In this document: one piece after another, positions 6,007-63,694 of the stretch
Layout of the letters: the number at the start of each line of letters is the position of its first letter
How positions within the stretch are numbered: position 1 is the first letter of the stretch
Assembly (NCBI GenBank): GCA_033762255.1
Contig: JANRLT010000039.1
Coordinates: forward strand, 1 to 64,000
DNA length: 64,000 nt
Direction: 5' to 3'
DNA from: Pirellulales bacterium
GTDB taxonomy: Bacteria > Planctomycetota > Planctomycetia > Pirellulales > JALHPA01
Position numbers and translations under genes: made by a program
Notes under the pieces: generated by a model
The model's database searches: none
What the model saw: the letters and a program-made list of their open reading frames with translations, nothing else
Told to the model about the DNA's origin: nothing

Positions 6007-6068
6007 CGCTAACAAATGCGCGGGTTTCGCCGTGGCTAACGTTAGTATTGTCCCTGCCAAACATCCAT

Positions 6069-6144: not shown

Positions 6145-6183
6145 CACTGGCATTTTCCATACATTTTGGCTAAGTTGGCGGAC

Positions 6184-9646: not shown

Positions 9647-9653
9647 GCATTAC

Positions 9654-10204: not shown

Positions 10205-10268
10205 AAAAATTCCTTTGTCCATTGACTTGTATACAATGCGACTCCGCGGTGAAATTTCCGTAGCTCCC

Positions 10269-12137: not shown

Positions 12138-12227
12138 GGCGGAGGCCTTTGACAATGGTGGGGGTGAAAAGCGTTGAAATATTGAGTAATGACGGAGAAT
12201 TGGCAAGAAAATAAGACTACGTTTCAA

Positions 12228-47538: not shown

Positions 47539-48087
47539 TTAATTACGCACATGTCGCGCTAAATTTTCCGGCAGGATGGAGGCGAGCGAGTCCATCAATT
47601 GACGGCTCATGTTGTCATAAGCCCGGTAAGGGGTGCAAGTGTTCATTCGCTGCGACACCAAAAGCGCCACGCCCGCACCCGCTGCCATCCCCACGCCAAA
47701 AGCAATTAACAAGGATTGGGTGGGGCGGTGTTGGACAAATTCTTCCACCTGATGTTGCCCTTCCTCCAGGGTTTCGGCTGCAGCCTGATATCCATTTTTC
47801 AGCGTTTCGGCGGTTTGCTCATAACCTTTTTGCACCGTCTCCGCGACACTCCCCATCATGCCCTCCTGGCTCCCTTCGGCGGATTTACCCATTCCCCTGG
47901 CCGATTTATCAAGGAATTGCTCAATCTCATCGCGGGCCACGCCGGTACGCTGTTGAATTTTGCCAACCACTTGATCCACATTCCCACCGTAAATTTGCAA
48001 ATCGTCATCCGTCAGCTTGCCCCAACGCTCCTTGACTTTACCCCGAATTTCATTCCATTTGCCTTGAATCATTTCTGAGTTAATCAT
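47539..48087 (-). CDS. CsbD-family stress protein fused to a membrane helix
   Basis: The 182-residue protein begins with a CsbD domain (MIQGKWNEIRGKVKERWGKL, then GNVDQVVGKIQQRTG), the small helical family induced by general stress. A helical linker with repeats of Q-K-G-Y-x-Q-x-A-x-x-L-x-x-G follows (EQTAETLKNGYQAAAETLEE) and then a membrane helix (TQSLLIAFGVGMAAGAGVAL). CsbD proteins are usually about 65 residues and soluble; fusion to a membrane anchor is less common. GGGAGAG precedes ATG 48087. An exact-consensus sigma-54 promoter lies at 48167-48182. Confidence 0.85.
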   Translation of the reverse strand: MINSEMIQGKWNEIRGKVKERWGKLTDDDLQIYGGNVDQVVGKIQQRTGVARDEIEQFLDKSARGMGKSAEGSQEGMMGSVAETVQKGYEQTAETLKNGYQAAAETLEEGQHQVEEFVQHRPTQSLLIAFGVGMAAGAGVALLVSQRMNTCTPYRAYDNMSRQLMDSLASILPENLARHVRN

Positions 48088-48166
48088 GACTCTCTCCCAT
48101 CCATTTAAAAGTAACAAGTGAGTTGTTCAGGCGTGCGGGATTGCACGGTATTGAAAAAAATAAATT

Positions 48167-48182
48167 TGCAAAGGTCGTGCCA
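48167..48182 (-). promoter_or_regulatory. Sigma-54 (-24/-12) promoter of the CsbD-TM operon
   Basis: On the minus strand the site reads TGGCACGACCTTTGCA, an exact match to TGGCACG-N4-TTGCA, with GG and GC 10 nt apart. It is 80 nt before the CsbD-TM start codon. A short palindrome ACCAGTCTGGT (48259-48269) lies about 77 nt upstream of the -24 element and could be an activator site. Confidence 0.8.
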
Positions 48183-48258
48183 AAGGTAAAAGCCGGGCGG
48201 CAAATTATGATATTAGCGGTTTCACTGATAATTTTCCCCAGTCTCTGATTACCGATAC

Positions 48259-48269
48259 ACCAGTCTGGT
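48259..48269. promoter_or_regulatory. Candidate enhancer-binding palindrome
   Basis: ACCAG-T-CTGGT lies in the position expected for an upstream activator site relative to the sigma-54 promoter at 48167-48182. It shares the half-site CCAGT/ACTGG with the inverted repeat at 54114-54140. Weak evidence; two sites only. Confidence 0.35.
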
Positions 48270-48571
48270 TTTGTGGCAATCAGCCGCAGCGCGCGCGCCA
48301 GGTGTTTTATCAACCTCTTAGGCGGCTTTTGCGCCACGCGGAGAAAACCGATTAAGGGCAACATCGTTTTCGGTGGCATGTCGTTCTATCTCTAATTTTA
48401 TTCCACGCCCGCGACCTCTTACGGGTTAATCCGCTCGTCATTAATTCCATTTTCCCGCAGTTACCCCTTTTGAAATCAAGTTCCCTGGTTCGGAGGCGGA
48501 CTCCCCGCAGTGACCTTTGGCGCTGTGATCTGATCTAAATGATGAACACTTGATGAACCTGGAAAGAAATG

Positions 48572-48587
48572 CGGTATAAAATTTGCA
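48572..48587 (+). promoter_or_regulatory. Candidate sigma-54 promoter of the PRC-barrel gene
   Basis: Reads CGGTATAAAATTTGCA: the invariant GG and GC with 10-nt spacing and TTGCA are kept, but the first T and two C positions of TGGCACG are not. It is 63 nt before the start of the PRC-barrel gene. The stretch 48088-48649 holds this site, the divergent promoter at 48167-48182 and no gene with a convincing start. Confidence 0.5.
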
Positions 48588-48649
48588 AAAATATAAATTA
48601 GACGTAGGGGTGGCCATTATTGATGCGCATTGCGCAGAAAGGCTCTATC

Positions 48650-49441
48650 ATGTCGCGCTGTTACCTGGGTCCGGTCGTGCTTTTTTTATGGATGAGTCAT
48701 TTAACGGCGGTCGCGGAGCCATCCACTTCCCCTCCGGAACCAGTGGGAGAGTTGAATGAACCGCGGGTATGTCCGGTTTCATTTGCCAAGGATTGGATTG
48801 GCAAAAGAGTCAAAACCGTTGCTGGAGACACGGTCGGCGCAATCGAAGACGTTGCGATTGATATTGGCAAAGGGGAAGTGCAGTCGGTCTTTTTGCAACC
48901 CCCCCCTCCCGCCAAGAAACCGCGGGAAATTCTGGCCATACCCGGCAAGTCCCTGGCCTTTAATACTGAACAGAATGAGTTGGCACGCGCGGAATTTTAT
49001 ATCGATAAATTACCACCCCCCCAGACCGAGATCGAATCTCGACCAAACTCACCGGGCAATCTGATATTACTAGCAAAGATCGAGCCGATCGCGGTGCTCG
49101 ATAAGAATGGTGTGGAATTGGGAAAAATCAGCGATTTTGCCCTGGCGGCGGATCGTCTAACCGTGGCTTATGCGGTGTTTTTACCCGCCAACCCCACGAA
49201 GGAATTAGCCAAACATGAATTTTATCCCATTCCCTTGTCCGCATTCTTGTTTGATAGCAAGAAAAACCGCTGGATTTTAGACCTGGCTCCCCAAGTATTG
49301 CTTAACACTGCGGTTGCCAACACCCAACATCCACCCGCCAAGGTTGATTCCTTGTGGACGGAATTTGTGCATGTCCGTTATGGCCGGACGATCTTGGGGG
49401 GTGTGCAAGATAGCACTCAACAAGAACAAAAATCTCCGTAG
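48650..49441 (+). CDS. Secreted protein with two PRC-barrel-like domains
   Basis: The 263-residue protein has a signal peptide (LGPVVLFLWMSHLTAVAEP) and two PRC-barrel-like halves: KDWIGKRVKTVAGDTVGAIE with DVAIDIGKGEVQSVFL, and AVLDKNGVELGKISDFALAA with DRLTVAYAVF. PRC-barrel domains occur in ribosome maturation factors and photosynthetic reaction-centre H subunits, and as envelope stress proteins such as those next to CsbD genes. AAAGG lies about 9 nt before ATG 48650; an earlier TTG/ATG (48620/48623) is possible. A candidate sigma-54 promoter is at 48572-48587. Confidence 0.8.
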   Translation: MSRCYLGPVVLFLWMSHLTAVAEPSTSPPEPVGELNEPRVCPVSFAKDWIGKRVKTVAGDTVGAIEDVAIDIGKGEVQSVFLQPPPPAKKPREILAIPGKSLAFNTEQNELARAEFYIDKLPPPQTEIESRPNSPGNLILLAKIEPIAVLDKNGVELGKISDFALAADRLTVAYAVFLPANPTKELAKHEFYPIPLSAFLFDSKKNRWILDLAPQVLLNTAVANTQHPPAKVDSLWTEFVHVRYGRTILGGVQDSTQQEQKSP

Positions 49442-49458
49442 TCACTAATGGTTAATCA

Positions 49459-51279
49459 TTAATTGGTGGTGCCAGACAACAGGTTATTAGTGCCGCAGGG
49501 AATGGCCCCCACAATCGTTTGCAAGCCCTGTAGCGAAATAGGCTTGGTCACATACTGATGAAACCCCGCTTCTAGTGCCTGTTGACGCGCTCCATCCTGG
49601 CCGTATCCAGTAATCGCCACCAAATAAATATCGCTGGTTTCAGGAGACTTGCCTAAGAAACGGGCCACATCATATCCAGACATCCCCTCCGGCAGGCCAA
49701 TATCGCAAAGCACCAGATCGGGACGCTTTTCCTGACACAAATCAATTCCCGCCTGTCCACTCTGGGCCACGTACACGGTATGGCCCATGAGTTCCAGCAT
49801 TCGCCGCAACGGAAAAGCGGCGTCCCGGCGATCATCGATGATAACTACGGTGCATTGGCGTTGGGACTGGCGGCGGTCGGCGGCAACGGCAGGCAAGCGC
49901 GCGGGTTTTTCGATTCGCGGCAACCAAATTTGAAATTTAGAGCCTAGCCCCATGCCGGGACTGGAGGCGGCTATTTTTCCCCCGTGCAAATCGATCAATC
50001 CCCGGGCCAATGCCAATCCCAGCCCCAATCCCCCCCGTTTATAAACCGTGCCTCCCGGGCCTTGGGCAAACGGGTCAAAAATTAGCCGCAGGGTGGCCTC
50101 GTCCATGCCCTCTCCTTGATCCCGGATTTCAATCAAGGCGGAATCCGCTTGCGAACAAGTCAAAGCAATGGTTACCTCCTGGCCCCGGCGGGAAAATTTT
50201 ATCGCGTTATGCAACAGATTGCCAAACACTTGGAGCAGCCGCGCGCTGTCGGCTTCCACCCAAACATCTTCCGCCGGCATATCACATACTAAATTAACGC
50301 CATACTCTCGATCTGCTTTGTTAGTATCCGAAACCGCCCGCTCCAACAGCGCCTTCAAATCCAACGGTGCTTTTGTAACTTGCAATTTGTTATGCGAAAT
50401 GCGCGAAGCGTCCAACAAGTCATCCGCCAAACGTATGATGACATCGGTTTGTCGCTCCATGATGTGCTTTAGCTCCATTAATTCGGGGGGGAGTTCTTCC
50501 TGCAATTCCAAAACATCGATGGAATTCCGAATCGTAGCCAGGGGATTGCGCAATTCATGCCCCAACATAGCTAAAAAATTATTCTTAGCTTGATCCTGCT
50601 GTTGGAGATATTGGGCGAATTTATTCCGGATCTGATTGTCGCGGTATAAATAATAAAATCCTAAAAAAACCAACCCCACGCCAATGACCACAGCCGCCAC
50701 ATACAGCCGCCAGGCCCACGCCTTACTAAGGGCTATCTCCCCTTCCAACGCATGTTGGCGTTGTTTTTCGCGGGTTTCCAGCTTCGCCAACAGCAATCGG
50801 ATGGCATCCATTTCCGCTTTACCCCGATTGTTGGAAATATAGTTATGGGCGGCGGCTTTGCCATGCTGTTCGTAGATTTCGATCGAGTGGGCCATCTCGA
50901 CGAACTTTTGATTTACATGAATGGCGACCTGCTGAAGCGTCTCCAGAAATTCGACATCAGCCGCGCCGATTCGGCGCAAATGATTTATATGATCGTCTTT
51001 TTCTCGAATCGCCTGTAAGTAAGGGGCCAGGTATGTCTCGTTTCCCGTGATTTGATATCCCCGATGGCCCGTCTCGGCGTCTTGGACGGTGGATAATAAT
51101 TTGATCAGTTGGCGGGATACGCCAATGGAATGGGCATGCCGCTCCTGCATGGTGGATAACTTTACAATACTTTGATAATTCATCCACGTAAAGCTTACGA
51201 TAAAAACAAGCATCATGACCGCTACCAAAATAGCGGCGTTTAGCGAACGAGTGCCGATATAAGTTCCACGGAAAGGCAT
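49459..51279 (-). CDS. CHASE3 hybrid sensor histidine kinase
   Basis: The 606-residue inner-membrane kinase has a helix at about 14-33, a CHASE3 sensor (QDAETGHRGYQITGNETYLA) and a second helix (VAAVVIGVGLVFLGFYYLYR). HisKA contains NFLAMLGHELRNPLATIRNS (phosphoacceptor His241); HATPase motifs are NLLHNAIKF, DQGEGMDE and GGLGLGLALARGL. A C-terminal receiver has DDRRD and DLVLCDIGLPEG with the phosphoacceptor Asp. CHASE3 senses an unknown extracytoplasmic stimulus. Hybrid kinases pass phosphate His-Asp to an HPt protein; one is encoded at 53026-53904. The start at 51279 is chosen over an upstream TTG; it is 211 nt from the divergent activator gene. Confidence 0.9.
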   Translation of the reverse strand: MPFRGTYIGTRSLNAAILVAVMMLVFIVSFTWMNYQSIVKLSTMQERHAHSIGVSRQLIKLLSTVQDAETGHRGYQITGNETYLAPYLQAIREKDDHINHLRRIGAADVEFLETLQQVAIHVNQKFVEMAHSIEIYEQHGKAAAHNYISNNRGKAEMDAIRLLLAKLETREKQRQHALEGEIALSKAWAWRLYVAAVVIGVGLVFLGFYYLYRDNQIRNKFAQYLQQQDQAKNNFLAMLGHELRNPLATIRNSIDVLELQEELPPELMELKHIMERQTDVIIRLADDLLDASRISHNKLQVTKAPLDLKALLERAVSDTNKADREYGVNLVCDMPAEDVWVEADSARLLQVFGNLLHNAIKFSRRGQEVTIALTCSQADSALIEIRDQGEGMDEATLRLIFDPFAQGPGGTVYKRGGLGLGLALARGLIDLHGGKIAASSPGMGLGSKFQIWLPRIEKPARLPAVAADRRQSQRQCTVVIIDDRRDAAFPLRRMLELMGHTVYVAQSGQAGIDLCQEKRPDLVLCDIGLPEGMSGYDVARFLGKSPETSDIYLVAITGYGQDGARQQALEAGFHQYVTKPISLQGLQTIVGAIPCGTNNLLSGTTN

Positions 51280-51490
51280 TGGTGTAAAAAAAATTACTAT
51301 AAATTCGCCACTGACGTCCAATTTGCCCCGTGTTTAACGCACAAGGGGTTTTATTACCTCCAACTAATTTGGTATACTGCGATCATGAATTATTGAGGAT
51401 TGTCTGAATATTTTACAAGACGTACCGTAATATCTTTTTACTCCCCCCTAGCGGCTATGCGCTTTTCCGCACTTATAGCCCCCATTTTCC

Positions 51491-53029
51491 ATGCCCAAGA
51501 TTCTCGTCATTGATGATGACCGCACCGTCAGGTATTTGGCAAAGCAAGCTTTGCTGGGGTTGAATTGTGAATTGCTGGAAGCTGATAATGCCGAGACCGG
51601 ATTGCGGCTTTTACGCAAGGAACAGCCGGATGTCATATTATTAGACATTATTTTGCCGGATTTGTCGGGGCTGGAAGCCTATCACAAATTTCACGCCCTG
51701 GATTCAAAGCTGCCGGTCATTTTTATGACCTCCATGGAGAGCAGCGAGATCGCCATCCAAGCGATGAGCCTGGGAGCGTATGACTTTGTCATGAAGCCGC
51801 TGGATGTGAAATTATTGCTCCCGTTGGTTCAACAGGCGTTGGAAATTCGCCGCCTCATGCACGTGCCGGTAGCTCTTCCGGGGGGGAGCGGACTCCCCGA
51901 AAGTGCGGATCGGATTGTCGGCCGCAGCGCGGTGATGCAATCCGTTTATAAAGCCATTGGCAGGGTCGCGCAGCAAAATGTCACGGTGCTCATCCGCGGC
52001 GAAAGCGGCACGGGCAAGGAATTGGTGGCCCGGGCGATTTATCAGCATAGCAACCGGTCGGACGGTCCTTTTTTAGCCGTAAATTGCGCGGCTATCCCCG
52101 ACGCCCTTTTGGAAAGCGAATTATTTGGCCATGAAAAAGGCTCATTTACGGGGGCGGATCAGCGCCGGATTGGCAAATTTGAACAATGCCACGGCGGTAC
52201 GCTATTTTTAGACGAAATTGGCGATATGTCGCTGCTGCTCCAGGCTAAAATGCTGCGCGTGCTGCAACAACAGCAATTTGAGCGGATTGGCGGCAATCAT
52301 ACCATCACCACCGATGTGCGAATTATCACGGCCACAAATCGCGATCTTGAGCAAATGGTGGAGGCCCGCGAATTCCGGGCTGATTTGTATTATCGCCTGA
52401 GCGGATTTACCATTCACCTTCCCCCGTTACGCGAACGTCCAGCCGATGTCCCGCTATTATTGGAGCATTTTTTACGAATTTATTCATCCACGCTCAATAA
52501 AGACGTCAGCGGATTCTCTCAAGAGGTCCGCGATCTGCTCCAAAACTATTCCTGGCCGGGTAATATCCGCGAATTGCAAAATGTGGTGCGCCAAGCGTTG
52601 CTCAGCACGATTGGGCCAGTGCTATTGCCCGAATTTTTGCCCTCCAGCTTAACCCGTCCGGTAAAAAACCCCGAACCGTCGACCACCTCTGGCATAAACC
52701 CATTTAAGCCCGCCGGCTCACCGGTCTTCCACGCGCAACACGCCACCGAGGAAAAACCGGCCGCAAACGTGGATCAATTAGGCTCGGAAATCGCCCACCT
52801 CTTAATTCAAAACCAAGAAAATGTTTACGAAAAAGCACTGCTGGCGATGGAGCGTTTTTTGCTAACCCGCGTCTTGGAACAGACACAGGGCAATTTGTCG
52901 CATACGGCTAGAATTTTAGGCATTACCCGCGGGAGCCTACGCAATAAAATTAAGTCCGCCAGTATTCAAATAGATAAGCACGTGAAAATTGATGATCTCG
53001 AAAGCGAAAACACATTGGAAGAAAATTAA
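51491..53029 (+). CDS. NtrC-family sigma-54 activator response regulator
   Basis: The 512-residue protein has a receiver (IDDDRTVR, Asp52 in [11 protein letters not shown], Thr80, Lys102), an AAA+ domain with Walker [17 protein letters not shown] (170-177), [20 protein letters not shown] and Walker [14 protein letters not shown], then [12 protein letters not shown] and a C-terminal Fis-type helix-turn-helix ([20 protein letters not shown]). The sigma-54-contact loop reads GSFTGA in place of GAFTGA. This is the only sigma-54 activator in the window and sits among sigma-54 promoter matches. It is divergent from the CHASE3 kinase and overlaps the HPt gene by 4 nt at the 3' end (convergent). It should receive phosphate through the HPt protein. 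Confidence 0.9.
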
Positions 53030-53904
53030 ACTTTTCTCCCCAATTCCCCCTCTTGGGGGTGATGCTCCACCAGGGCCGCCGCCAAATGCGAAACTTCCTG
53101 TTCCACATCATTTAAAATCTTAGTCAAGAATTCAGGATCGGGCGAGGCGATTTGTGACTGAAGTTCCATTTCTTGCAAAACCGACTGGCAGCGTTCCGCC
53201 CCAAAATTTGCCACCAGCCCCTTAAGACTGTGGGCCGCGCGATGCGCGCGTACCCAATCATGACGTCGCACCGCGCCTCGCATTTCGTCCAGCAATCCTG
53301 GAAAATCCTCGTAAAAGAACGTGATTAAATTACCCAGCAACTGCTGGTCCCCACCCAAACGGTCCAAGCTCGCGGGAATATTGATAATAGGTAGCTGGGG
53401 CGTGGTCATAGCTGCATCCTCGTGTAAACCTTCTGCCGAATGGGCTGGGGATGGGGTAGGGGACGCTTTCAAAATGTTCCCGATCAATTCCAAAAGAGAT
53501 TGTACCGCAAAAGGTTTTTCAATAAAGGCATCCGCCCCCACCGCCACAAACCGTTCATAATCGTATTTTTGCCGCCGCGCGGTCGTGGCGATAATCGGCA
53601 CGTGCTTATCACCTTCTAAAACACGCAGGATGGATGTCGTCTGCAAGCCATCCAACAATGGCATTTGCAGATCGATAATGATCACATGGGGCACCTGCTC
53701 CTTTACTTCGCGAATAGCCCTAATTCCGTTGGAAGCTATCCGCACGCGATACCCCGCGCCGCTCAATATTTGAAACAAATACTTTTGCGTGGCCGGGGTA
53801 TCCTCTACCACAAGCACATCAACAGGCTGGGCGGGCGGCGTAGCGCCTTCCAAATAGGGGGGGATCGAAGGCATTGCCCAGGTAGTTTGTAAGTCAGTTG
53901 ACAT
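53026..53904 (-). CDS. Receiver-HPt phosphotransfer protein
   Basis: The 292-residue soluble protein carries an N-terminal receiver (VDVLVVEDTPATQKYLFQIL, phosphoacceptor Asp78 in VIIIDLQMP, Lys130 in AFIEKPF) and a C-terminal HPt domain with HRAAHSLKGLVANFG (His225, motif H-S-L-K-G). HPt domains carry phosphate from a hybrid-kinase receiver to a final receiver. With the two hybrid kinases and the NtrC-type activator encoded here, all components of a multistep phosphorelay are present. ATG 53904 was chosen; a GTG 27 nt upstream is possible. A weak sigma-54-like site is at 53966-53981. Confidence 0.85.
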   Translation of the reverse strand: MSTDLQTTWAMPSIPPYLEGATPPAQPVDVLVVEDTPATQKYLFQILSGAGYRVRIASNGIRAIREVKEQVPHVIIIDLQMPLLDGLQTTSILRVLEGDKHVPIIATTARRQKYDYERFVAVGADAFIEKPFAVQSLLELIGNILKASPTPSPAHSAEGLHEDAAMTTPQLPIINIPASLDRLGGDQQLLGNLITFFYEDFPGLLDEMRGAVRRHDWVRAHRAAHSLKGLVANFGAERCQSVLQEMELQSQIASPDPEFLTKILNDVEQEVSHLAAALVEHHPQEGELGRKV

Positions 53905-53965
53905 AAGTGGCCCGTGGCAAAACTCACCCACTCAGGCAGCTTTTCCGTAGTTTAATAATAGAGGT

Positions 53966-53981
53966 CGCAAATGTCATACCA
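53966..53981 (-). promoter_or_regulatory. Weak sigma-54-like site upstream of the receiver-HPt gene
   Basis: On the minus strand TGGTATGACATTTGCG keeps GG-N10-GC and TTGC but differs from TGGCACG at two positions. It lies 63 nt before the start codon. The gene-free stretch 53905-54259 otherwise holds the BON promoter and its upstream inverted repeat. Confidence 0.4.
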
Positions 53982-54113
53982 TTACAATTACACCAATATA
54001 TGCGTAACTAATTTCTTGATTTGTTTGGGCGTTAGGGCATAAATTGCGGAATAATGCATAATTTTATTGTCCAATATATTATTCCCTGGAGCCGGATCGC
54101 CCACGATGATTTT

Positions 54114-54140
54114 TTACTGGGCATCTTTATTAACCAGTAA
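54114..54140. promoter_or_regulatory. Candidate activator site for the BON promoter
   Basis: TTACTGG (54114-54120) and CCAGTAA (54134-54140) form a 7-bp inverted repeat with a 13-nt spacer, centred about 66 nt upstream of the -24 element at 54193. Position and symmetry fit an NtrC-type enhancer; the half-site resembles that at 48259-48269. Confidence 0.45.
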
Positions 54141-54192
54141 TCCGCTAGCACAACTGGGCAAAATGTCTTTTGTCGGAGGAATTGCATATTTT

Positions 54193-54208
54193 TGGCATTA
54201 ATTTTGCT
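54193..54208 (+). promoter_or_regulatory. Sigma-54 promoter of the BON-like gene
   Basis: TGGCATTAATTTTGCT keeps TGGCA, TTGC and the GG-N10-GC spacing; only positions 6-7 differ from TGGCACG. It is 52 nt before the start codon at 54260. Confidence 0.75.
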
Positions 54209-54259
54209 CTATTAATAAATTATTTCAAAAATTTCTACTTTAGGATCATCAAATACACC

Positions 54260-54571
54260 ATGGTTAAGGAAATACATGATGTTCCCTTTTCGGGGGGGAT
54301 CAAGCAATCTGCGGGGTTACTAGGGAGCGAAGAGCGGGAACTGCGATTACAGGCGGAGTTCATCCGCCAGCTATCAATCGTTTTTCCGGTTTTAGCACGC
54401 GCGTTGTACGTCCAGGTGGATAGCCAGCGGCAGGAATTGACTTTGGCCGGTCGGCTACCCACCTTCTACATAAAGCAACTTCTTTATCGCTTTTGTAGCC
54501 GACAATTGCCAGAATATCGATTGATTGACCGATTACAGGTCGATCAACATTCCAACTGGCCACTGAGTTAA
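54260..54571 (+). CDS. BON-like domain protein
   Basis: The 103-residue protein ends with a BON-type alpha-beta pattern: ALYVQVDSQRQELTLAGRLP, TFYIKQLLYRFCSRQLPEYR and LIDRLQV. BON domains bind phospholipid or polysaccharide and are typical of osmotically induced envelope proteins such as OsmY; here only one is seen and no signal peptide. An in-frame start 30 codons upstream (54170) would include AT-rich sequence between the promoter and the ATG, so 54260 is preferred. The ribosome binding site is weak. A hairpin at 54648-54683 follows. Confidence 0.6.
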   Translation: MVKEIHDVPFSGGIKQSAGLLGSEERELRLQAEFIRQLSIVFPVLARALYVQVDSQRQELTLAGRLPTFYIKQLLYRFCSRQLPEYRLIDRLQVDQHSNWPLS

Positions 54572-54647
54572 CCCCAGGCTACACAAAGAACTGTTTTGGC
54601 CGTCCGGGGAATTCCTCTTCTAACATTCGACATTTCGTCAAAAATAA

Positions 54648-54683
54648 ATGGCCGAGGTCAAACCCGCGTTTAACCCCGGCCAT
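54648..54683 (+). terminator. Hairpin terminator after the BON gene
   Basis: ATGGCCG (54648-54654) pairs with CGGCCAT (54677-54683); an inner GGT/ACC pair extends it. The following sequence is A/T-rich with short T runs only, so termination strength is uncertain. Confidence 0.5.
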
Positions 54684-54856
54684 CTTATAAAATAAATTTA
54701 CTTTTCCGCCCTGGTGACTCGTGCTGTGTCAACATTGAGTATTGACTACTCCGAAAAGCTGTAGTCCACTGCCTTCATGTCCAAAACGTGGGCGAGCACT
54801 CAGGGGCTAATTCGTCCGACTTGCGACTTTAGCACCGACACCACGCTCACCCATGC

Positions 54857-54943
54857 CTAACTCGTCAACCAATAAATGAGTAACAGCAAAGGAAGTGGAA
54901 TTCCGATCACCCACAGCATGGCAAACAAAAATTTCTTTCCCAT
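54857..54943 (-). CDS. 28-residue single-helix membrane protein
   Basis: The frame encodes MGKKFLFAMLWVIGIPLPLL followed by LLIYWLTS: a short basic start and one membrane helix. AGGTGG lies about 6 nt before the ATG at 54943. It follows the DUF892 gene by 48 nt on the same strand and would be the last gene of that operon. Many stress-induced short membrane proteins in bacteria have this size; no family is claimed. Confidence 0.65.
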   Translation of the reverse strand: MGKKFLFAMLWVIGIPLPLLLLIYWLTS

Positions 54944-54991
54944 GGTCCACCTAAAAGTAAACAAATCTCCGGTTGCTACGCGGGGTTTCGA

Positions 54992-55501
54992 TTAACCTTC
55001 CGCTTCCTCGGTCAAGGCCTCGACATTGATAATCGACTCCGCCAATTCGGTGAGCAGCTTATCCGTGGCTCCCTCTTCCTGCAGGCTTTCATCCAATAAA
55101 CTGGCCACATTTTCATGACCCAACAAAGTGGCAAAAGTGCGGGCCACGCCGTACGCGGCGATTTCATAGTGTTCCACCCGTTGGGCGGCGGAAATCAGGG
55201 CGGCATCCAGCAAATCCGGTTCAACATCCATTTTCATCAGTTCCGCCCCCTCTTCCAACAATCCTTGCATTCCCACGCAAGTGTGCCCCGACAACCTTAA
55301 TTCCAATTCGCTAGCAATTTGGTCCAAACGTTCCACTTGGCCTTGTGTTTCCTCCAAATGGTGGGCAAAGGCTTCGCGCAATTTTTCATTGTCCGCCGCC
55401 TTGGCCATTTTGGGCAGGGCTTTTAACAGTTGCTTTTCGGCACTATAAATGTCCTTCAGTTCGTGTAAAAACAAGTCGTCAAAGGTGTTTAACTTTTTCA
55501 T
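54992..55501 (-). CDS. Ferritin-like DUF892 (YciE/YciF) protein
   Basis: The 169-residue helical protein has the DUF892 pattern: FDDLFLHELKDIYSAEKQLL, KALPKMAKAADNEKLREAFA and RVEHYEIAAYGVARTFATLL with E-x-x-H metal-ligand positions. YciE/YciF proteins are ferritin-like, bind a di-metal centre and are induced by osmotic or stationary-phase stress. GGAGC precedes the ATG. It is 53 nt downstream of the lipoprotein gene, in an operon read from the sigma-54 site at 55957-55972. Confidence 0.9.
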   Translation of the reverse strand: MKKLNTFDDLFLHELKDIYSAEKQLLKALPKMAKAADNEKLREAFAHHLEETQGQVERLDQIASELELRLSGHTCVGMQGLLEEGAELMKMDVEPDLLDAALISAAQRVEHYEIAAYGVARTFATLLGHENVASLLDESLQEEGATDKLLTELAESIINVEALTEEAEG

Positions 55502-55554
55502 CGATCGTGCTCCATGATTAAGGGGTGAGGACCCGGGAAATGCCAGGTGATGAC

Positions 55555-55872
55555 TTACGGATTTTGATTGGGGACGGCGTTGGCCGCTTCGGCCTTTTCT
55601 TTTTGGATTTTTTCGGCTTCGGCGCGTTGTGCTTCTTGCAATTCTTGTTGCTTGTCAACGATTTTTTCATTGGCATTTTGCTGCGCTTGCCGTACATCCG
55701 TCGTGGCATCTTCCTTGGCATTTTGCAGCTCATTTTGTTTGTCAAGCATTTTCTTCTTGGCGTCCACTTCGGCTTGACGCACATCTTGCTTTTCCGACTG
55801 GGGGTCTTTCGCGCATCCCGCCAGACCGAACACGCATAAGCCGATCGCCGTTAAATTCAAACAACGTAACAT
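55555..55872 (-). CDS. Small lipoprotein with a coiled-coil body
   Basis: The 105-residue protein has a lipoprotein signal (LTAIGLCVFGLAGCAKDPQS; lipobox L-A-G-C) and a coiled coil rich in Glu, Gln, Lys and Asp (RQAEVDAKKKMLDKQNELQN). It should be anchored to a membrane by the acylated Cys and could act as an envelope spacer, as Lpp does. It is first in the operon with DUF892 and the 28-residue membrane protein. A sigma-54 promoter lies at 55957-55972, 85 nt upstream. Confidence 0.8.
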   Translation of the reverse strand: MLRCLNLTAIGLCVFGLAGCAKDPQSEKQDVRQAEVDAKKKMLDKQNELQNAKEDATTDVRQAQQNANEKIVDKQQELQEAQRAEAEKIQKEKAEAANAVPNQNP

Positions 55873-55956
55873 GGATTAATCCTCGCAAAAAAACGGTGTT
55901 ATCAACCGCCCATGATTGTTGCGCTACAAAACTGCAACGGCGGTACTTTAACCAAA

Positions 55957-55972
55957 AGCAAGTTGCATGCCA
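55957..55972 (-). promoter_or_regulatory. Sigma-54 promoter of the lipoprotein-DUF892 operon
   Basis: On the minus strand TGGCATGCAACTTGCT, with one difference from TGGCACG-N4-TTGC[AT]. It is divergent from the site at 56287-56302; both lie in the gene-free stretch 55873-56358. Confidence 0.8.
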
Positions 55973-56135
55973 GAAGTGGTTTGGCGCTTAAATGAAGTTG
56001 CGTTGCTCTGCTCTATTCCAGAACAATGGATGTATTGTCAGTTGTTTGATTTTCGGTCTAGTGAAACTGGGTGTTTTTGTTTAAGCAAACGGCAAGAATG
56101 ACTACTTTTGCCTTGAGTTTCTAAGGGAATGTTTT

Positions 56136-56158
56136 AGCCTTGTTTCAAGGCTTTTGGT
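56136..56158 (+). terminator. Weak hairpin in the divergent promoter region
   Basis: AGCCTTG (56136-56142) pairs with CAAGGCT (56146-56152), loop TTT, then TTTGGTTG. It may stop stray transcription between the two divergent promoters, or be part of a regulatory region. Confidence 0.4.
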
Positions 56159-56286
56159 TGAAATTTGATCAGTTTGGTAGCTTGTATATCAGACTTGACA
56201 GCAACTTTTATGTAAAACTCGTGGTTGAGCTAAGCACAATCTCCCACGGGGTTAAATGGGACTACGGAAATGAGCTGGATTGGCAA

Positions 56287-56302
56287 TGGCATGTTATTTG
56301 CC
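56287..56302 (+). promoter_or_regulatory. Sigma-54 promoter of the CsbD2-permease operon
   Basis: TGGCATGTTATTTGCC keeps TGGCA-G, TTGC and GG-N10-GC; one C-to-T change and a final C. It is 57 nt before the CsbD2 start codon. Confidence 0.75.
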
Positions 56303-56358
56303 TTTACTAACTGTAGAAGGAATTTGCAGTTAGACTATCCTTCCGAAAGGAAAGTACC

Positions 56359-56571
56359 ATGAAATGGGATACGATTCAGGCCAATTGGACCGAATTAAAG
56401 GGTAGAGTGGTGGAGTTTTGGGGACGGATCACAGAGGACGACCTAAGCATCATTCAAGGCAAACGCGACCAGCTCATCGCATTACTCCGACGATATTATG
56501 GTTTGAGTCAGGATGAAGCTGAGCATGAAGTCTGCAAATTTCAAAAGCAATGCGATGTCGAATTAATCTAA
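56359..56571 (+). CDS. CsbD-family stress protein
   Basis: The 70-residue protein reads MKWDTIQANWTELKGRVVEF then WGRITEDDLSIIQGKRDQLI, the CsbD family pattern (W-x-x-L-K-G, D-D-L, I-x-G-x-x-x-Q-L). It is the size of normal CsbD proteins. GAAAGGAA precedes the ATG. It shares the promoter with the permease gene 44 nt downstream. With the CsbD-TM protein at 47539-48087 this makes two CsbD paralogues in the same regulon candidate. Confidence 0.9.
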   Translation: MKWDTIQANWTELKGRVVEFWGRITEDDLSIIQGKRDQLIALLRRYYGLSQDEAEHEVCKFQKQCDVELI

Positions 56572-56615
56572 TGGCATAATTTTTCCCCGCCTCTTAAAAG
56601 AAGCAAAATAGTCCA

Positions 56616-58649
56616 ATGGCCAGATTAGGAAAAGTGGACCGGGCACTGCTGCGCACCAGTTATGTGATTACTGCATTTCTTTTAATCGCGGCGCTCTATC
56701 TCGGCCAGGATGTGTTTTTACCGCTCACCCTGGCCATTTTATTGACATTTCTACTGAGTGGAGCGGTTTCCCGCCTGGAACGCTGGGGCATGTCACGCAT
56801 CCCCGCGACAATTTTGGCCTGTGGTATCGTAGCCGCTGGCACGGCTGTGGTTTCCATGATTGTGGTTGGCCAAGCGGTCTCCCTGGCCGAAAATCTCCCC
56901 AGTTATCGGCAAAATATTGTCACCAAAATACAGGCGATTCAAGGCTCTTCCGGTTCTTGGGTCAAGCGCACCTTGGGGTTTGTGGAACAAATCCAAGAGG
57001 AAGTCGCTGCTCCGCAAGACTCAAACGTGGAGGATAAAAATCCTGGATCAGGGACGAAAAATACGGGCCAGGATCCTTCTCAGCTATCCACAAATACCAC
57101 GGATGCAAACACCCAAAAATCGCCGCTGGCTACCCCGGCACGCCCCGTCCCCGTCCAGCTGATGAGCCGCGAAAATGGCCTTTGGGCCTATTTTCGTACG
57201 ATTTCCGGTCCTTTGTGGGAACCGGTGGCGCTTATCGGATTAGTTAGCCTGTTTACTATTTTCATGCTCATCGACCGGGACGATTTGCGTAATCGGTTGG
57301 TGATCTTGCTGGGGAATCAACGGCTGTATGGCACCACCCAAATGCTGGACGAAGCCGCGCAGAAAGTGGGAAGATATTTGCGAATGCAACTGCTCATTAA
57401 CACCCTGTATGGAGCGGCCGTGGCGGTGGGGTTGGCGGTGGTGGGCCTGCCTAATGCGCTGTTATGGGGGTTTTTGGCAATGATTTTGCGCTTTATTCCC
57501 TACCTGGGTCCCCTGATTGCCATGGCGTTCCCTATTATGCTTTCCTTGGCGGTTTTTGAAGGCTGGATTCAACCGCTGATCATTGGCGGTTTATTTGTAA
57601 CCCTTGAATTAATATCCAATAACATCCTGGAACCGTGGTTATATGGCAGTAGCACCGGATTAACGGCCATGGGAATTTTGGTGGCCGCGTTATTTTGGAC
57701 AAGTTTGTGGGGAACCCCCGGATTAATCATGGCCATCCCTATCACCGTCTGCATGATTGTGATTGGGAGGCATTTTCCCCAATTTCGTGGTTTGAGGGTG
57801 TTATTGAGTGATGATGAGCCGATGCCGCCCGCGGCCGTGATCTATCAGAGATTGCTCGCGCGAGACCCGGATCAAGCGGCTGAAACCTTGACTGAATGCG
57901 CGAGCTGTCGGAGCTATGAAGTCCTTTGCGATGAAGTTTTGCTACCCGCCATCAAAATGTACGAACAGGATCGGCATCAAGACGTGATGGACGCTGACGA
58001 ACAAAAAACCCTGCAAGCGGATTTTCAGACTTTATTTCAAGAAAGCTTGGAAGATGCGTTGGCAACGACGCCCACGGAGGTGGTCCCGACCAAATGTCCC
58101 GCCCGGATTTTATGCATTCCCGCCCGCGACCAAGGAGATTTATGGGCCTCGGAATTGCTAGCCCGGCTCTTACTGCGGTTGGGGCACTCGGTTGATGTGA
58201 TCCCAGTAAACCAAACTACCGGCGAGACCGCCGAACAATTCGACCGCGGGGATTACGACCTGGCGATAATTAACGCCGTTCCCCCGGCAGTTACCATGCA
58301 TATTCAATATCTTTGCAAACGCCTGCGCGCAGTCGCGTCCCAAGGCAAAATCTTAGTCGGTTATTGGGCTACGGACGCCTTTGTGGAACGGGTGCGGGAA
58401 AAATTTACCAGCCGGGGAGCCGATCAGGTCGTTACCCGATTTCAAGACGCGGTCCAATGGTTGCAACGCGAAGCCCCCAGTTGGTCCGCCGCCCGCCAAT
58501 GTCGCACGGCCGCGGACAACCTTTCTCTTTCCGCTAGCCCGCGTCGTGAAGCCAACCCGCGCGATGAACAATCTGACAACTCTCCCGCGTCGATTCCGAA
58601 TGAGCGGGAAAATCAGCGGGAGGCGCGTGATTCGGCCGCTCCCGCTTGA
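56616..58649 (+). CDS. AI-2E/PerM-family permease with a C-terminal cobalamin-binding-like domain
   Basis: The first ~390 residues are an AI-2E transporter (PerM/TqsA family) with about seven membrane helices (ITAFLLIAALYLGQDVFLPL, ALLWGFLAMILRFIPYLGPL, LEPWLYGSSTGLTAMG) and a periplasmic insertion rich in Asn, Thr and Ser. The cytoplasmic tail from about residue 480 has a Rossmann-like domain (CPARILCIPARDQGDLWASE, LLARLLLRLGHSVDVIPVNQ, YDLAIINAVPP) resembling cobalamin-binding domains, but the D-x-H-x-x-G motif for the corrin is not conserved. A low-complexity tail follows. Transport of small organic molecules or ions is inferred; it may respond to the same stress as CsbD2. Confidence 0.8.
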   Translation: MARLGKVDRALLRTSYVITAFLLIAALYLGQDVFLPLTLAILLTFLLSGAVSRLERWGMSRIPATILACGIVAAGTAVVSMIVVGQAVSLAENLPSYRQNIVTKIQAIQGSSGSWVKRTLGFVEQIQEEVAAPQDSNVEDKNPGSGTKNTGQDPSQLSTNTTDANTQKSPLATPARPVPVQLMSRENGLWAYFRTISGPLWEPVALIGLVSLFTIFMLIDRDDLRNRLVILLGNQRLYGTTQMLDEAAQKVGRYLRMQLLINTLYGAAVAVGLAVVGLPNALLWGFLAMILRFIPYLGPLIAMAFPIMLSLAVFEGWIQPLIIGGLFVTLELISNNILEPWLYGSSTGLTAMGILVAALFWTSLWGTPGLIMAIPITVCMIVIGRHFPQFRGLRVLLSDDEPMPPAAVIYQRLLARDPDQAAETLTECASCRSYEVLCDEVLLPAIKMYEQDRHQDVMDADEQKTLQADFQTLFQESLEDALATTPTEVVPTKCPARILCIPARDQGDLWASELLARLLLRLGHSVDVIPVNQTTGETAEQFDRGDYDLAIINAVPPAVTMHIQYLCKRLRAVASQGKILVGYWATDAFVERVREKFTSRGADQVVTRFQDAVQWLQREAPSWSAARQCRTAADNLSLSASPRREANPRDEQSDNSPASIPNERENQREARDSAAPA

Positions 58650-58657
58650 GTGTTGAA

Positions 58658-61096
58658 CTAATAATTCAAGATCTGATCGGCGTATTTTGCCAACACCAGG
58701 AATAATTGATGTCGTTCCAGCGGTTTGGGTAAGTAATCATTGCACCCCGCCTCCAGGCATTTTTCGCGATCTCCCTGCAGGGCGGCGGCCGTGAGGGCAA
58801 TGATCGGCAATTTATATCCCAGCGACCGGAGACGCGCGGTTGCATCAAAACCATTTAACACGGGCATTTGCATATCCATCAGGATGACATCAAATGGTTC
58901 CTTGCCGGGGGCTGACTTTAGCATTAAATCCATCGCTTCCTGCCCCGTATTAACCACGGTTACCCGGGCCTGCACATCTTCTAACATGCGCCGCACCAGA
59001 TATTGCACACTGCGGGTATCCTCCGCCACCAACACGCGCAAGGGAATCGTCACCCGCAGCGTTTCGTGAATATGCTCGTTATCGGCCGCCAATTGCTCCC
59101 GCACGCTAATCGTCGAAGCGGCTTCTTCCTCCGTCAGCGGCAACTCCAAACCAACCTGGGTCCCCCGGTTGAGCGTGCTTTGTACCTCTATCCGCCCCTC
59201 CAAGAGTTCGGTCAATCGCTGGCAGATCGTCAAGCCCAGACCGGTACCGCCATATTTTTGCGATAAATGGCGGTGCTCTTGATGAAAGGCCGTAAAGATG
59301 TCCGCCAGCTTTTCCCTGGCGATGCCCACGCCCGTGTCGCTCACATCAATGCGCAAAAAGCCCGGCCGCAAGGGATCGTACGGACGGACATGAATAATGA
59401 CCTGGCCCCGTTCGGTAAATTTAATCGCGTTGCCCACCAAATTGATCAGTATTTGCCGCACCCGCAAGGGATCCGTGTTAATCAGCCGCGGCACGAATTC
59501 GGGATAATCGGTGTGCAATTCAATCCCTTTTTCCTGGGCCAGCGGCGCAAATAACGAATGCACGTCCTCGATGGTTTGCAAGAGGGAGCAAGGTACGCGA
59601 TTAACTTCCAACTTGCCAGCCTCGATTTTGGACAAATCCAAGACATCGTTTAAGATGCCCAGCAAGAGTTGCCCTTGATTGCGAATCATTTGCACCATTT
59701 CGCGCTGTTCATCGTCGGTCAGTCGGGGATAAAGCGTATCCGCGCAGCCCAAAACCGCGGTCAGGGGGGTCCGAATTTCATGACTCATATTCGCCAAAAA
59801 CGCGGATTTAGCCTCGTTGGCGGATTGGGCCTGGGCCTGCGCCAGGCGCAAGGTATCCTCGATGCTTTTGCGCTCCGTCACGTCACTTTGAATTCCGACG
59901 TAGTGCGTCACGTTGCCTTGCTCATCCCGCAAGGGGCTAATACGCACTTCATTCCAAAATTCGGTCCCGTCCTTGCGATAGTTTAAAAGCACCACATTGA
60001 CATCGGTTTGCCTGGACAGGGCCTCGGTAATGAGCCTTATCATGGCGGGATCGGTCTTGGGACCTTGCAAAAAACGGCAATTCCGCCCCACGATTTCCTG
60101 CCGCGAATATCCAGTTAATAATTCAAAACCGCGATTTGCGTAAAGAATTTCGCAGTGGGGTGTTTTGGCGTCGGTGACCAGGATGCCATTGGTGGCGGCT
60201 TCCAGCGCGCGGTTGCTCAGCCGCAAGTTTTCCTCAAATTTTCGCCGGGCGGTAATATCCCAGTTGAGACCGATCATCTTTAATGCCTGGCCGGTCTCGC
60301 TCCAAATGACTTTGCCGCAACCCTCTAGCCAGCGCACCCCTAGCGTCGGATGAGTTATTTGAAATTCCGCCTGATAACGGCCATTCTTTTCCAGCGCCGC
60401 CTCGGTCCGTTGCCGCACCCAATCGCGAAATTCAACCATTACCCGGTCAAAAATCATGTTAGTGTCGATTTTGCCGGGCTGATCGACAAATCCCCATAAT
60501 TCGCGGCACCGTTGGTCAAACGTGCAATACCCCTCCACCAAATCCCATTCCCAATAGCCCATTTGGGCCGCATCGAGCGCTAACCGCAACTGCACCTCGT
60601 GCAATTCCAAGGCGGCCTGCGACAGGCGATGCGCGTGAATCTCGGATTGGAGGGTTTGGTTGACTTGATAGAGCTCATGCGTACGTTCCGCCACCAAATT
60701 TTGCAAATCCTGGGTGCTGCGCAACATAAGGGCCTTTGGAATGACGGGTATTAATGCCACCACCGTTAATACGGAGACTCCCGCGGTGACCATTTTTAAC
60801 AAGCCCCCCAATCGGTAGGCTGGCCACCAAAACATTAGCGAATCCAAAAGATGCGTCATTCCGCACGCCAGAATAAATGCGCTAAATAGCCAAAAAATCC
60901 GGGGAAAAGGTAAATCCCTGCGTTTGCGTATAAATACCCATAATACGATGGGGATGGCGGTGTAGGCCCCCCAGATGAGCAAATCGGAAATGATATGCAG
61001 CCACCCCCAGCCAGGTTCTTCGTGCCAAACTGTGCCACAATGCCAACGCGGCGGAAATCCAGTTGTATCCCAGATCGCATTGAACCAGTTCAACAT
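58658..61096 (-). CDS. Ethylene-receptor-like/LOV hybrid sensor histidine kinase
   Basis: The 812-residue protein begins with three membrane helices like the plant ethylene receptor: DLLIWGAYTAIPIVLWVFIR with Asp38, and AFILACGMTHLLDSLMFWWP where Cys78 and His82 (C-x-x-x-H) match the copper ligands; Asp38-Cys78 spacing is 40, as in ETR1 (25, 65). A PAS domain (about 165-285) is followed by a LOV-type PAS: LTGYSRQEIVGRNCRFLQGP with the flavin adduct Cys340, LNYRKDGTEFWNEVRISPLR and VGIQSDVTERK. HisKA (HEIRTPLTAVLG, His439), HATPase (NLVGNAIKFTE, DTGVGI, GGTGLGL) and a receiver (ILMDMQMP, Asp741) follow. It would join a hybrid-kinase phosphorelay. ACAGGA precedes the ATG. Confidence 0.9.
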   Translation of the reverse strand: MLNWFNAIWDTTGFPPRWHCGTVWHEEPGWGWLHIISDLLIWGAYTAIPIVLWVFIRKRRDLPFPRIFWLFSAFILACGMTHLLDSLMFWWPAYRLGGLLKMVTAGVSVLTVVALIPVIPKALMLRSTQDLQNLVAERTHELYQVNQTLQSEIHAHRLSQAALELHEVQLRLALDAAQMGYWEWDLVEGYCTFDQRCRELWGFVDQPGKIDTNMIFDRVMVEFRDWVRQRTEAALEKNGRYQAEFQITHPTLGVRWLEGCGKVIWSETGQALKMIGLNWDITARRKFEENLRLSNRALEAATNGILVTDAKTPHCEILYANRGFELLTGYSRQEIVGRNCRFLQGPKTDPAMIRLITEALSRQTDVNVVLLNYRKDGTEFWNEVRISPLRDEQGNVTHYVGIQSDVTERKSIEDTLRLAQAQAQSANEAKSAFLANMSHEIRTPLTAVLGCADTLYPRLTDDEQREMVQMIRNQGQLLLGILNDVLDLSKIEAGKLEVNRVPCSLLQTIEDVHSLFAPLAQEKGIELHTDYPEFVPRLINTDPLRVRQILINLVGNAIKFTERGQVIIHVRPYDPLRPGFLRIDVSDTGVGIAREKLADIFTAFHQEHRHLSQKYGGTGLGLTICQRLTELLEGRIEVQSTLNRGTQVGLELPLTEEEAASTISVREQLAADNEHIHETLRVTIPLRVLVAEDTRSVQYLVRRMLEDVQARVTVVNTGQEAMDLMLKSAPGKEPFDVILMDMQMPVLNGFDATARLRSLGYKLPIIALTAAALQGDREKCLEAGCNDYLPKPLERHQLFLVLAKYADQILNY

Positions 61097-61264
61097 AAAA
61101 TCCTGTCAAAAACTCATCCCAGGGTTGGGCCACACGAATGAATAATAACTGCTCCCAAACGCCACAAACCCTGCACACTTTTAATAAGTGCCAGGGTCGG
61201 GCGTATAAAAATATACCGCTAATAATGTATATTTAATTTCTATATTTTTATTGAACTTCCCAGG

Positions 61265-61435
61265 CTACGGGGTGCCCCGCGGCACTTGGCCAAACAACAG
61301 GCTCAAAATGAACAACACAATAAAAATGAAAAATAAAATCTGGGCAATGCCCGAGGCGGCGGCGTAAATGCTGGTAAAACCAAATACCCCCGCAATTAGG
61401 GCAATAACCAGAAAAACAATGGTCCAGTGTAACAT
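61265..61435 (-). CDS. DUF1328 small membrane protein
   Basis: The 56-residue protein (MLHWTIVFLVIALIAGVFGF, then AAASGIAQILFFIFIVLFIL) fits the DUF1328/YtjA-like family of small two-helix membrane proteins. GAGGAG precedes the ATG. Such genes are often induced by osmotic stress. A weak sigma-54-like site is at 61494-61509. Confidence 0.9.
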   Translation of the reverse strand: MLHWTIVFLVIALIAGVFGFTSIYAAASGIAQILFFIFIVLFILSLLFGQVPRGTP

Positions 61436-61493
61436 GATTGAACTCCTCATATGGATTGAGTTTACAACAAGCTTTACCCTCTTCTAGTACATG

Positions 61494-61509
61494 GGCAATT
61501 TCTGCGCCG
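61494..61509 (-). promoter_or_regulatory. Weak sigma-54-like site upstream of DUF1328
   Basis: On the minus strand CGGCGCAGAAATTGCC keeps GG-N10-GC and TTGC but differs from the consensus at several positions. It is 59 nt before the start codon. It is divergent from the site at 61747-61762 in the gene-free stretch 61436-61822. Confidence 0.35.
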
Positions 61510-61746
61510 TGAAACATTAATTAAGCCACAAGTTCGCGGCCCATTAATCTCCTGACGACGTAATTATTTACTAAATCATGGTTTATAGCCAATTTAAATC
61601 TTTCAGCTATGATACTGAAGATTGTTAATTATCAAGAAGACGCCCCTGTCTCATTAACCACCAAACTGATTGCAAATATACCACTAACTGCGACGCGTTA
61701 GTTGCCTACCGTAAATTCACCACAGGATTGGCATCGCCGGGCGGTT

Positions 61747-61762
61747 TGGCATTGTATTTGCT
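61747..61762 (+). promoter_or_regulatory. Sigma-54 promoter of the GH13 gene
   Basis: TGGCATTGTATTTGCT keeps TGGCA, TTGCT and GG-N10-GC spacing; positions 6-7 differ from TGGCACG. It is 60 nt before the ATG at 61823 and very close in sequence to the BON promoter at 54193. Confidence 0.75.
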
Positions 61763-61822: not shown

Positions 61823-63694
61823 ATGCTCAAGTATTCATCGAGTGTCACTTCTACCACCGCGTCCCTTAAATCCAGCGGAAAAATGCTTCTCGTCCAGGAT
61901 GTTCCAGAGGATTCTTTTTCCAGTCCCGAATTGGCGGGGATGGGAGCCATCGTCCATGCCGGCGGCGTGGCATTTCGAGTGTGGGCTCCCCACGCGGAAA
62001 AAGCTTTTGTAGTGGGTAGCTTTAATCAGTGGCAAGAAACCTGTGCACTGCGCAAAAACGATCAAGGTTTTTGGTATGTGGATGTGCCAGGCGCCAAAGT
62101 CGGCGATGAGTATCGATATTTATTTTATCGGGGGGAAGAACGACTATCGCGCATCGACCCTTATGCCAAGGAAGTTACCAACTCCATCGGCAACGGTGTG
62201 ATCGTCGATGAGGAGTTTGATTGGGGAGAAAACAATTTTCAACTTCCACCCTGGAATGAAATTGTGATTTATGAACTTCACATTGGCACATTTGGCGACC
62301 CCGACCGGCAACAACCTGGCAACTTTGACGCGGCAATCGCCAAATTTGAGCACCTAAAGCGGCTAGGCGTCAATGTCATTCAAATCATGCCCACGGCGGA
62401 GTTCGCCGGGGATTACTCTTGGGGATATAATCCGGCCCATATCTTTGCCACGGAATCGGCCTACGGCGGGCCGCGGGCTTTTAAAAACTTTATTCGCGCG
62501 GCGCATGACGCGGGATTGGGCGTGATATTGGACGTGGTTTACAATCACTTTGGCCCCAGCGATCTGGATTTGTGGCGGTTTGACGGCTGGACGGAAAACG
62601 ACGGAGGGGGCATTTACTTTTACAATGACTGGCGACGCAGTACCCCCTGGGGAGACACGCGGCCCGATTATGGCCGGGGAGAAGTTCGCCAGTTTATCCA
62701 CGACAACGCCTTTTACTGGTTGGATCAATTTCATGTGGATGGCCTGCGTTTTGACATGACGCTGTACATGCGCACGGCCAATGGGTCGGATTTGCCCGAA
62801 GGGTGGAGCCTGACCCAATGGATCAACCAGGACATCAGAACCAAATATCCCGGACGAATCACCATTGCCGAGGATTTGCAAAACAATGAATGGCTGACCA
62901 AGCCCGTGGACGCGGGGGGAGCGGGATTTTCCGCGCAGTGGGACGCGAATTTTGTGCATCCCATCCGTCGGGCGGTGGAGGTTTCCTCCGACGAGGCTTG
63001 CTCGCTCATGGCCGTGCGCGACGCGATCAACTTTAAATATAACGGCGATGGATTTCAGCGGGTGATTTACAGCGAATCACACGATGAAGTGGCCAATGGC
63101 AAGGCGCGTGTTCCCACCAATGTTGATCAGCGGGACGGGAACAACTATTTTGCCCAAAAAAAGTCCACCCTGGCGGCGGCGCTGGTCTTTACCACGCCGG
63201 GCATCCCCATGCTTTTTCAAGGGCAAGAGTTCTTGCAGGGGGGCTGGTTTCAGGACACGGTGCCGTTGGATTGGGACCTAACCGACACTTACCAAGGAAT
63301 CTTGCGACTGTACCGCGATTTGATCAGGTTGCGTTTGAATCGCGGCGGAACCACTCGCGGACTATGCGCCAACCATGTGGATGTCTTTCACGTCAACGAC
63401 GCGGAAAATGTCTTGGCCTTTCGCCGCTGGGACCATGGCGGCCCGGCCGATGACGTGCTGGTCGTGATGAATTTTTCCAGCGAACCAAAGCGGGATTATC
63501 GGATCGGTTTGCCCCAGCCTGGAACATGGGAGCTAGAGCTTAACAGCGATTGGCAGGGGTACAGCCCGGATTTTAGCAATTTTGCCTGCGATAATCTGGT
63601 GAGCGACGCGCAATCGTACGACCATCAACCCGCGAGCGCGCGGATCAATATCGGGCCGTACAGCGCATTGATTTATTCGCTATCGGGGGGGTAG
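61823..63694 (+). CDS. GH13 alpha-amylase-superfamily enzyme with N-terminal CBM48
   Basis: The 623-residue enzyme has a CBM48-like module (VAFRVWAPHAEKAFVVGSFN, QWQETCALRKNDQGFWYVDV) and a GH13 barrel: GVILDVVYNHFGPSDLDLWR (region I), DGLRFDMTLY (catalytic Asp311), RITIAEDLQNNEW (Glu350) and VIYSESHDEVANGKARV (transition-state Asp421). The last motif resembles branching enzymes, and the CBM48 fits branching, debranching or trehalose-forming enzymes; substrate is not fixed. Glycogen or trehalose handling in osmotic stress would suit its sigma-54 promoter. ATG 61823 is taken; an ATG at 61883 is also possible. No obvious ribosome binding site for either. Confidence 0.85.
   Translation: MLKYSSSVTSTTASLKSSGKMLLVQDVPEDSFSSPELAGMGAIVHAGGVAFRVWAPHAEKAFVVGSFNQWQETCALRKNDQGFWYVDVPGAKVGDEYRYLFYRGEERLSRIDPYAKEVTNSIGNGVIVDEEFDWGENNFQLPPWNEIVIYELHIGTFGDPDRQQPGNFDAAIAKFEHLKRLGVNVIQIMPTAEFAGDYSWGYNPAHIFATESAYGGPRAFKNFIRAAHDAGLGVILDVVYNHFGPSDLDLWRFDGWTENDGGGIYFYNDWRRSTPWGDTRPDYGRGEVRQFIHDNAFYWLDQFHVDGLRFDMTLYMRTANGSDLPEGWSLTQWINQDIRTKYPGRITIAEDLQNNEWLTKPVDAGGAGFSAQWDANFVHPIRRAVEVSSDEACSLMAVRDAINFKYNGDGFQRVIYSESHDEVANGKARVPTNVDQRDGNNYFAQKKSTLAAALVFTTPGIPMLFQGQEFLQGGWFQDTVPLDWDLTDTYQGILRLYRDLIRLRLNRGGTTRGLCANHVDVFHVNDAENVLAFRRWDHGGPADDVLVVMNFSSEPKRDYRIGLPQPGTWELELNSDWQGYSPDFSNFACDNLVSDAQSYDHQPASARINIGPYSALIYSLSGG

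Follow-up and report, generated by a model that had tools for sequence, protein, structure and literature searches.

Ethylene sensing is established in only a few bacterial species, and the one known receptor of both light and ethylene is cyanobacterial. This protein, SynEtr1/UirS (Slr1212) of Synechocystis, is a histidine kinase with both a membrane ethylene-binding domain (EBD) and a photosensor; it binds ethylene and has an effect on phototaxis (PMC5812497, PMC6682694); its photosensor is a cyanobacteriochrome (UV-A), and it signals to UirR/LsiR. Ethylene binding has also been demonstrated for AzoEtr1 of Azospirillum brasilense, an EBD-PAS-histidine kinase with all seven residues that are needed for binding in ETR1 (PMC11819568); AzoEtr1 has neither a LOV domain nor a receiver and is partnered by a stand-alone receiver protein. 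Arabidopsis ETR1 itself is a hybrid kinase with a receiver, a GAF domain and a three-helix domain whose copper site consists of Asp25, Cys65 and His69 (PMC12643061), and it signals to CTR1. In the LOV histidine kinases (Brucella LOV-HK and EL346, and the engineered YF1 and SB2F1), the LOV domain lies upstream of the kinase, and there is no EBD. Ethylene-binding hybrid kinases, light-plus-ethylene reception (SynEtr1, with another chromophore class) and LOV kinases are already known.

The kinase analyzed here is encoded by a planctomycete of the order Pirellulales, within a 64 000-nucleotide stretch of DNA (hereafter, the window, meaning this entire stretch), and has the domain order EBD-PAS-LOV-HisKA-HATPase-REC. 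Like SynEtr1, it carries a membrane EBD and a photosensor in one histidine kinase, but the predicted photosensor is a flavin-binding LOV domain and the proposed partner is a sigma54 activator. It resembles AzoEtr1 in its EBD, PAS and kinase domains, except that it has both the LOV domain and the receiver; with ETR1, it shares the three-helix domain, the type of copper site and the hybrid kinase organization, but has PAS-LOV where ETR1 has GAF. The four LOV histidine kinases listed above, which share the position of the LOV domain, are among its top sequence and structure matches. Planctomycete EBD-PAS-HK-REC kinases (e.g. those of genomes G604 and G422) have the same EBD, kinase, receiver and neighboring sigma54 regulator but, unlike the window kinase, no LOV domain.

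The open reading frame named in the sequence-only reading is borne out and lies on the minus strand, which that reading had left unstated; its identification of the EBD and the LOV domain also stands, as confirmed by independent profile and structure-sequence searches (Table 1). The Pfam matches span residues 304–408 (PAS_9/PAS_3), 429–494 (HisKA), 542–655 (HATPase_c) and 688–799 (Response_reg), and the PAS_3 profile matches two stretches of the protein, the better one in the LOV domain. The HisKA histidine, the N and G boxes of HATPase and the receiver Asp and Lys are all present. The closest whole-length homologs are planctomycete, and the closest matches of the AlphaFold2 model, in which inter-domain placement is poor (pTM 0.42), include LOV-histidine kinases. 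A chance match or artefact is ruled out by profile scores far above the cut-offs and by full-length orthologs, and a two-gene composite or frame error by the single 812-codon open frame, collinear with the ortholog from genome G087.

Table 1. Features of the window that bear on the kinase, its proposed partners and the surrounding island.
Feature	Coordinates	Strand	Basis or remark
Hybrid histidine kinase, 812 aa	58658..61096	-	ORF, Pfam
Ethylene-binding domain (predicted), residues 30-124, three predicted membrane helices	60725..61009	-	ETR1_N
First PAS, residues ~166-289	60230..60601	-	PAS_3 stretch, PAS-like strand order in model; approximate limits
LOV, residues 297-408, Cys340 in GRNCRFLQG	59873..60208	-	Pfam, alignment
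HisKA dimerization/phosphoacceptor, His439	59615..59812	-	Pfam
HATPase_c catalytic domain	59132..59473	-	Pfam
C-terminal receiver, Asp741	58700..59035	-	Pfam
REC-sigma54 activator-HTH_8 response regulator (NtrC type), proposed output	51491..53029	+	G087 ortholog adjoins kinase
REC-Hpt protein, proposed phosphotransfer step	53026..53931	-	convergent with sigma54 regulator
CHASE3-HK-REC kinase, possible second input or unrelated	49459..51321	-	divergent from sigma54 regulator
AI-2E family transporter	56616..58649	+	homolog in G604 island
CBM48/alpha-amylase (branching-enzyme-like)	61823..63694	+	homolog beside EBD kinase and sigma54 regulator in G604
Sigma54-type match, TGGCAT-N5-TTGCT	61747..61762	+	61 nt upstream of amylase-like gene
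Sigma54-type match	48167..48182	-	upstream of CsbD gene 47539-48117
Sigma54-type match	55957..55972	-	85 nt upstream of small lipoprotein-like ORF 55555-55872
Sigma54-type match	54193..54208	+	~50 nt upstream of candidate start inside ORF 54170-54571
Sigma54-type match, one mismatch	56287..56302	+	57 nt upstream of small CsbD gene 56359-56571

The N-terminal domain is a predicted ethylene-binding domain, with a match to the ETR1_N family (PF25487) at E=1.5e-37 and 128 bits, compared with a cut-off of 27. All seven residues are kept (DYIPICH, i.e. Asp38, Tyr45, Ile48, Pro49, Ile75, Cys78 and His82), corresponding to the seven binding residues of ETR1, Asp25, Tyr32, Ile35, Pro36, Ile62, Cys65 and His69. 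The sequence-only reading had pointed to Asp38, Cys78 and His82; its numbering is correct, the Asp-to-Cys spacing is indeed 40, the same as between Asp25 and Cys65 of ETR1, and Tyr45, Ile48, Pro49 and Ile75 are retained on top of these three residues. The three-helix segment that it described is seen in the AlphaFold2 model as helices 28–58, 65–87 and 91–115. For the ethylene domain, no solved structure was matched in a search by sequence. All seven residues are retained in 128 of the 158 surveyed ethylene domains.

The LOV domain, a predicted blue-light sensor, shows matches of up to 7.8e-37 to LOV domains of solved structure, and its best matches are the LOV domains of known photoreceptors, e.g. 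aureochrome and phototropin. The canonical LOV motif around Cys340 reported earlier is present, and the flavin-pocket residues Arg341, Gln344, Asn372, Asn382 and Gln403 are kept. One residue departs from the pattern: Thr357 replaces the usual Arg, a second flavin-phosphate contact conserved across the remaining members of the family with LOV and across the aligned solved LOV domains, and this replacement could weaken flavin binding. Thr357, together with a relative (G1229) that has its ethylene domain but, at the LOV position, an ordinary PAS, would suit a kinase in which the ethylene domain works and LOV shows weak photochemistry or acts as a flavin-based redox sensor. We consider this quite improbable; the retention of Cys340 and of the other pocket residues, as well as the likeness to known photoreceptors, argues against it. 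No second true LOV domain was found in the source genome.

Ethylene domains were detected in 42 of 392 genomes across the phylum of the window, in 66 of 397 genomes of its order and in 28 of 398 genomes from the phylum of a Rhodocyclaceae bacterium (Pseudomonadota), and are therefore ordinary in bacteria, planctomycetes included; the consulted passages on bacterial ethylene receptors contain no mention of planctomycetes. The pairing with LOV is another matter. Among 128 ethylene-domain loci, nearly all from planctomycete sampling, LOV is present only in the window and in G087, and no EBD-LOV combination was seen in ~40 loci read outside the phylum (Pseudomonadota and plasmid records, with cyanobacteria covered by plasmids only), many of which extend only ~500 aa past the domain. 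A common architecture is, on these counts, rejected so far. A search directed at the family of G087 added two further pairings, G1211 and G1277, as well as relatives that proved informative. G087, G1211 and G1277 belong to the same class as the window genome but to another family, and rule out a one-genome oddity; within the order of the window, the pairing was found in the window genome only. The rarity implied in the sequence-only reading is broadly right, with the correction that at least three further genomes carry the pairing. No description of an EBD-LOV protein was found in the open literature; the individual parts are known, and their combination, an EBD-LOV kinase with a sigma54 regulator linked to it, was not found described. 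As to other planctomycete EBD kinases, several (loci L134, L135, L175 and L176) are long hybrids of 1200–1420 aa, and some genomes (e.g. G238 and G350) encode two or three EBD kinases each.

In a tree of the LOV-kinase-receiver part (a quick search, with SH-aLRT only and no bootstrap), seven proteins, those of the window, G087, G1211, G1277, G1230, G105 and G1229, form one clade with SH-aLRT 100. The window and G087 kinases are 53% identical overall, with 66% in the EBD and 59% in LOV compared with 35% in the first PAS and 29% in the linker; both sensors are, accordingly, better conserved than the region between them. All seven ethylene-site residues are kept in the window, G087, G1211 and G1277. 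In G1230, the site has decayed to D-L-I-A-L-S-H, with the copper Cys, the Tyr and the Pro lost, and G105 has no ethylene domain at all; both retain LOV. Conversely, G1229 retains the seven ethylene residues in the absence of LOV. The checked kinase and receiver residues, His439 included, are invariant across all seven members. The two sensors are gained or lost separately within the clade while the kinase core is unchanged. G105 and G087 belong to one genus, and the members other than the window to one family outside its order; transfer between lineages or repeated loss could each explain this spread.

G1230 and G105, where LOV, the kinase and the adjacent sigma54 regulator outlast the ethylene site or the entire domain, would also be compatible with LOV as the working sensor and a membrane domain that serves as a structural anchor or as a copper/redox sensor no longer reading ethylene. 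Such a role is unlikely in view of the complete site in the window and three of its relatives and of the conservation of the ethylene domain between the window and G087, which exceeds that of the first PAS. Separately, loci L355 (G105, 8492–12290) and L354 (G1230, 2937–6931) represent natural ethylene-domain loss and decay, respectively, beside an intact LOV kinase and sigma54 regulator.

The link to a sigma54 regulator comes from gene neighborhoods. In G087, a REC-sigma54 activator is the next gene, a few tens of nucleotides downstream on the same strand as the kinase, and its best match in the genome of the window is the regulator listed in Table 1 (569 bits compared with 313 for the next match; 56% identical). 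A REC-sigma54 activator is located directly downstream of the kinase in G1230 and G105 as well. A member of this regulator family and an EBD kinase are no more than 10 kb apart at 8 of the 42 loci examined (window, G087, G604, G552, G417, G291, G422 and G463); the 42 loci were picked by likeness to the window domain and are hence a non-random sample; the chance of such proximity is estimated at <1% per locus, from a few copies per 7-Mb genome. Because the family is common (143 of 397 genomes), most of its copies serve other kinases. A hybrid kinase normally requires an Hpt; the third gene in G087 ends in REC-Hpt, 37% identical to the REC-Hpt protein of the window, and in G422 an Hpt gene occupies the corresponding position.

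In the window itself, the regulator is 5.6 kb and several genes away from the EBD-LOV kinase and does not form one operon with it, and the CHASE3 kinase is nearer to the regulator and divergent from it. This layout leaves room for a real dual sensor with a different partner, the promoters of the island obeying, for example, the CHASE3 kinase. We regard this as not likely: the orthologous regulator directly adjoins the kinase in G087, G1230 and G105, and in G604 the amylase, AI-2E, a lone receiver, the regulator and the EBD kinase are kept together in one island.

The 'stress island' to which the kinase had been assigned is supported by its content, with two CsbD genes, DUF892, a PRC-barrel protein, AI-2E and the CBM48/amylase enzyme at 46–64 kb. 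The window contains four perfect TGGCAYN5TTGCW matches compared with 0.19 expected, a number reached in 0 of 100 shuffles, although the Y variant was admitted post hoc, once the strict-motif hits were seen. All four lie at 48.1–61.8 kb (48167–61762, 13.6 kb), ~50–85 nt before plausible starts, and the chance of such a cluster anywhere in the genome is ~0.0014 under uniform placement. Genome-wide, there are 29 matches, roughly a quarter of which could be due to chance because the reversed control gave 7. The textbook TGGCAC motif with two mismatches shows no excess in the window (42 compared with 40 expected), and no TGGCAYN5TTGCW-type sites were found near the kinases of G1211, G1230, G105 and G1277. 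These data are suggestive of a sigma54 regulon of nearby stress genes.

Several further features of the window were recorded. Each perfect site precedes a stress-type or small gene. The AI-2E transporter has a long C-terminal extension past its Pfam match, which ends at ~residue 383 of 677. A small ORF (61268–61435, minus strand), flanked by the start of the kinase and by the amylase-like gene, looks, by eye, like a DUF1328-type membrane protein. Outside the island, a 698-aa protein (33159–35255, minus strand) contains TPR repeats and a Pretoxin HINT domain (PF07591).

The domains, the ligand residues, the recurrence of the pairing, the independent loss of the sensors and the conserved neighbor can all be read from the sequences, whereas the binding of copper and ethylene, the flavin adduct, the Hpt step, the order of the phosphorelay, the response direction and the regulon with its targets are inferred. 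Rather probably, the protein is a dual-input hybrid kinase that feeds one phosphorelay to a sigma-54 stress regulon. The three membrane helices would bind Cu(I) via Asp38, Cys78 and His82, with ethylene sitting on the copper, and the cytoplasmic LOV domain would bind flavin and form a light-driven adduct with Cys340. Each input would alter the coiled coil leading into the kinase, which would phosphorylate its own receiver; the phosphate would then reach the REC-sigma54 activator via the REC-Hpt protein, and the activator would turn on sigma-54 promoters of nearby stress genes. No earlier description of an ethylene-to-sigma-54 pathway was found in the literature.

Ethylene may form from organics in sunlight. 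Tentatively, then, the kinase could be a sunlight-coincidence detector in a non-photosynthetic bacterium, in which one kinase integrates blue light, perceived by LOV, with ethylene, perceived at the copper site, and its phosphorelay leads to sigma-54 control of the stress island. If the dual-input scheme is true, the natural relatives that lack one sensor or the other would make it possible to separate what each input contributes through comparisons of proteins that already exist, and a planctomycete EBD-LOV kinase would tie ethylene to sigma-54 stress control.
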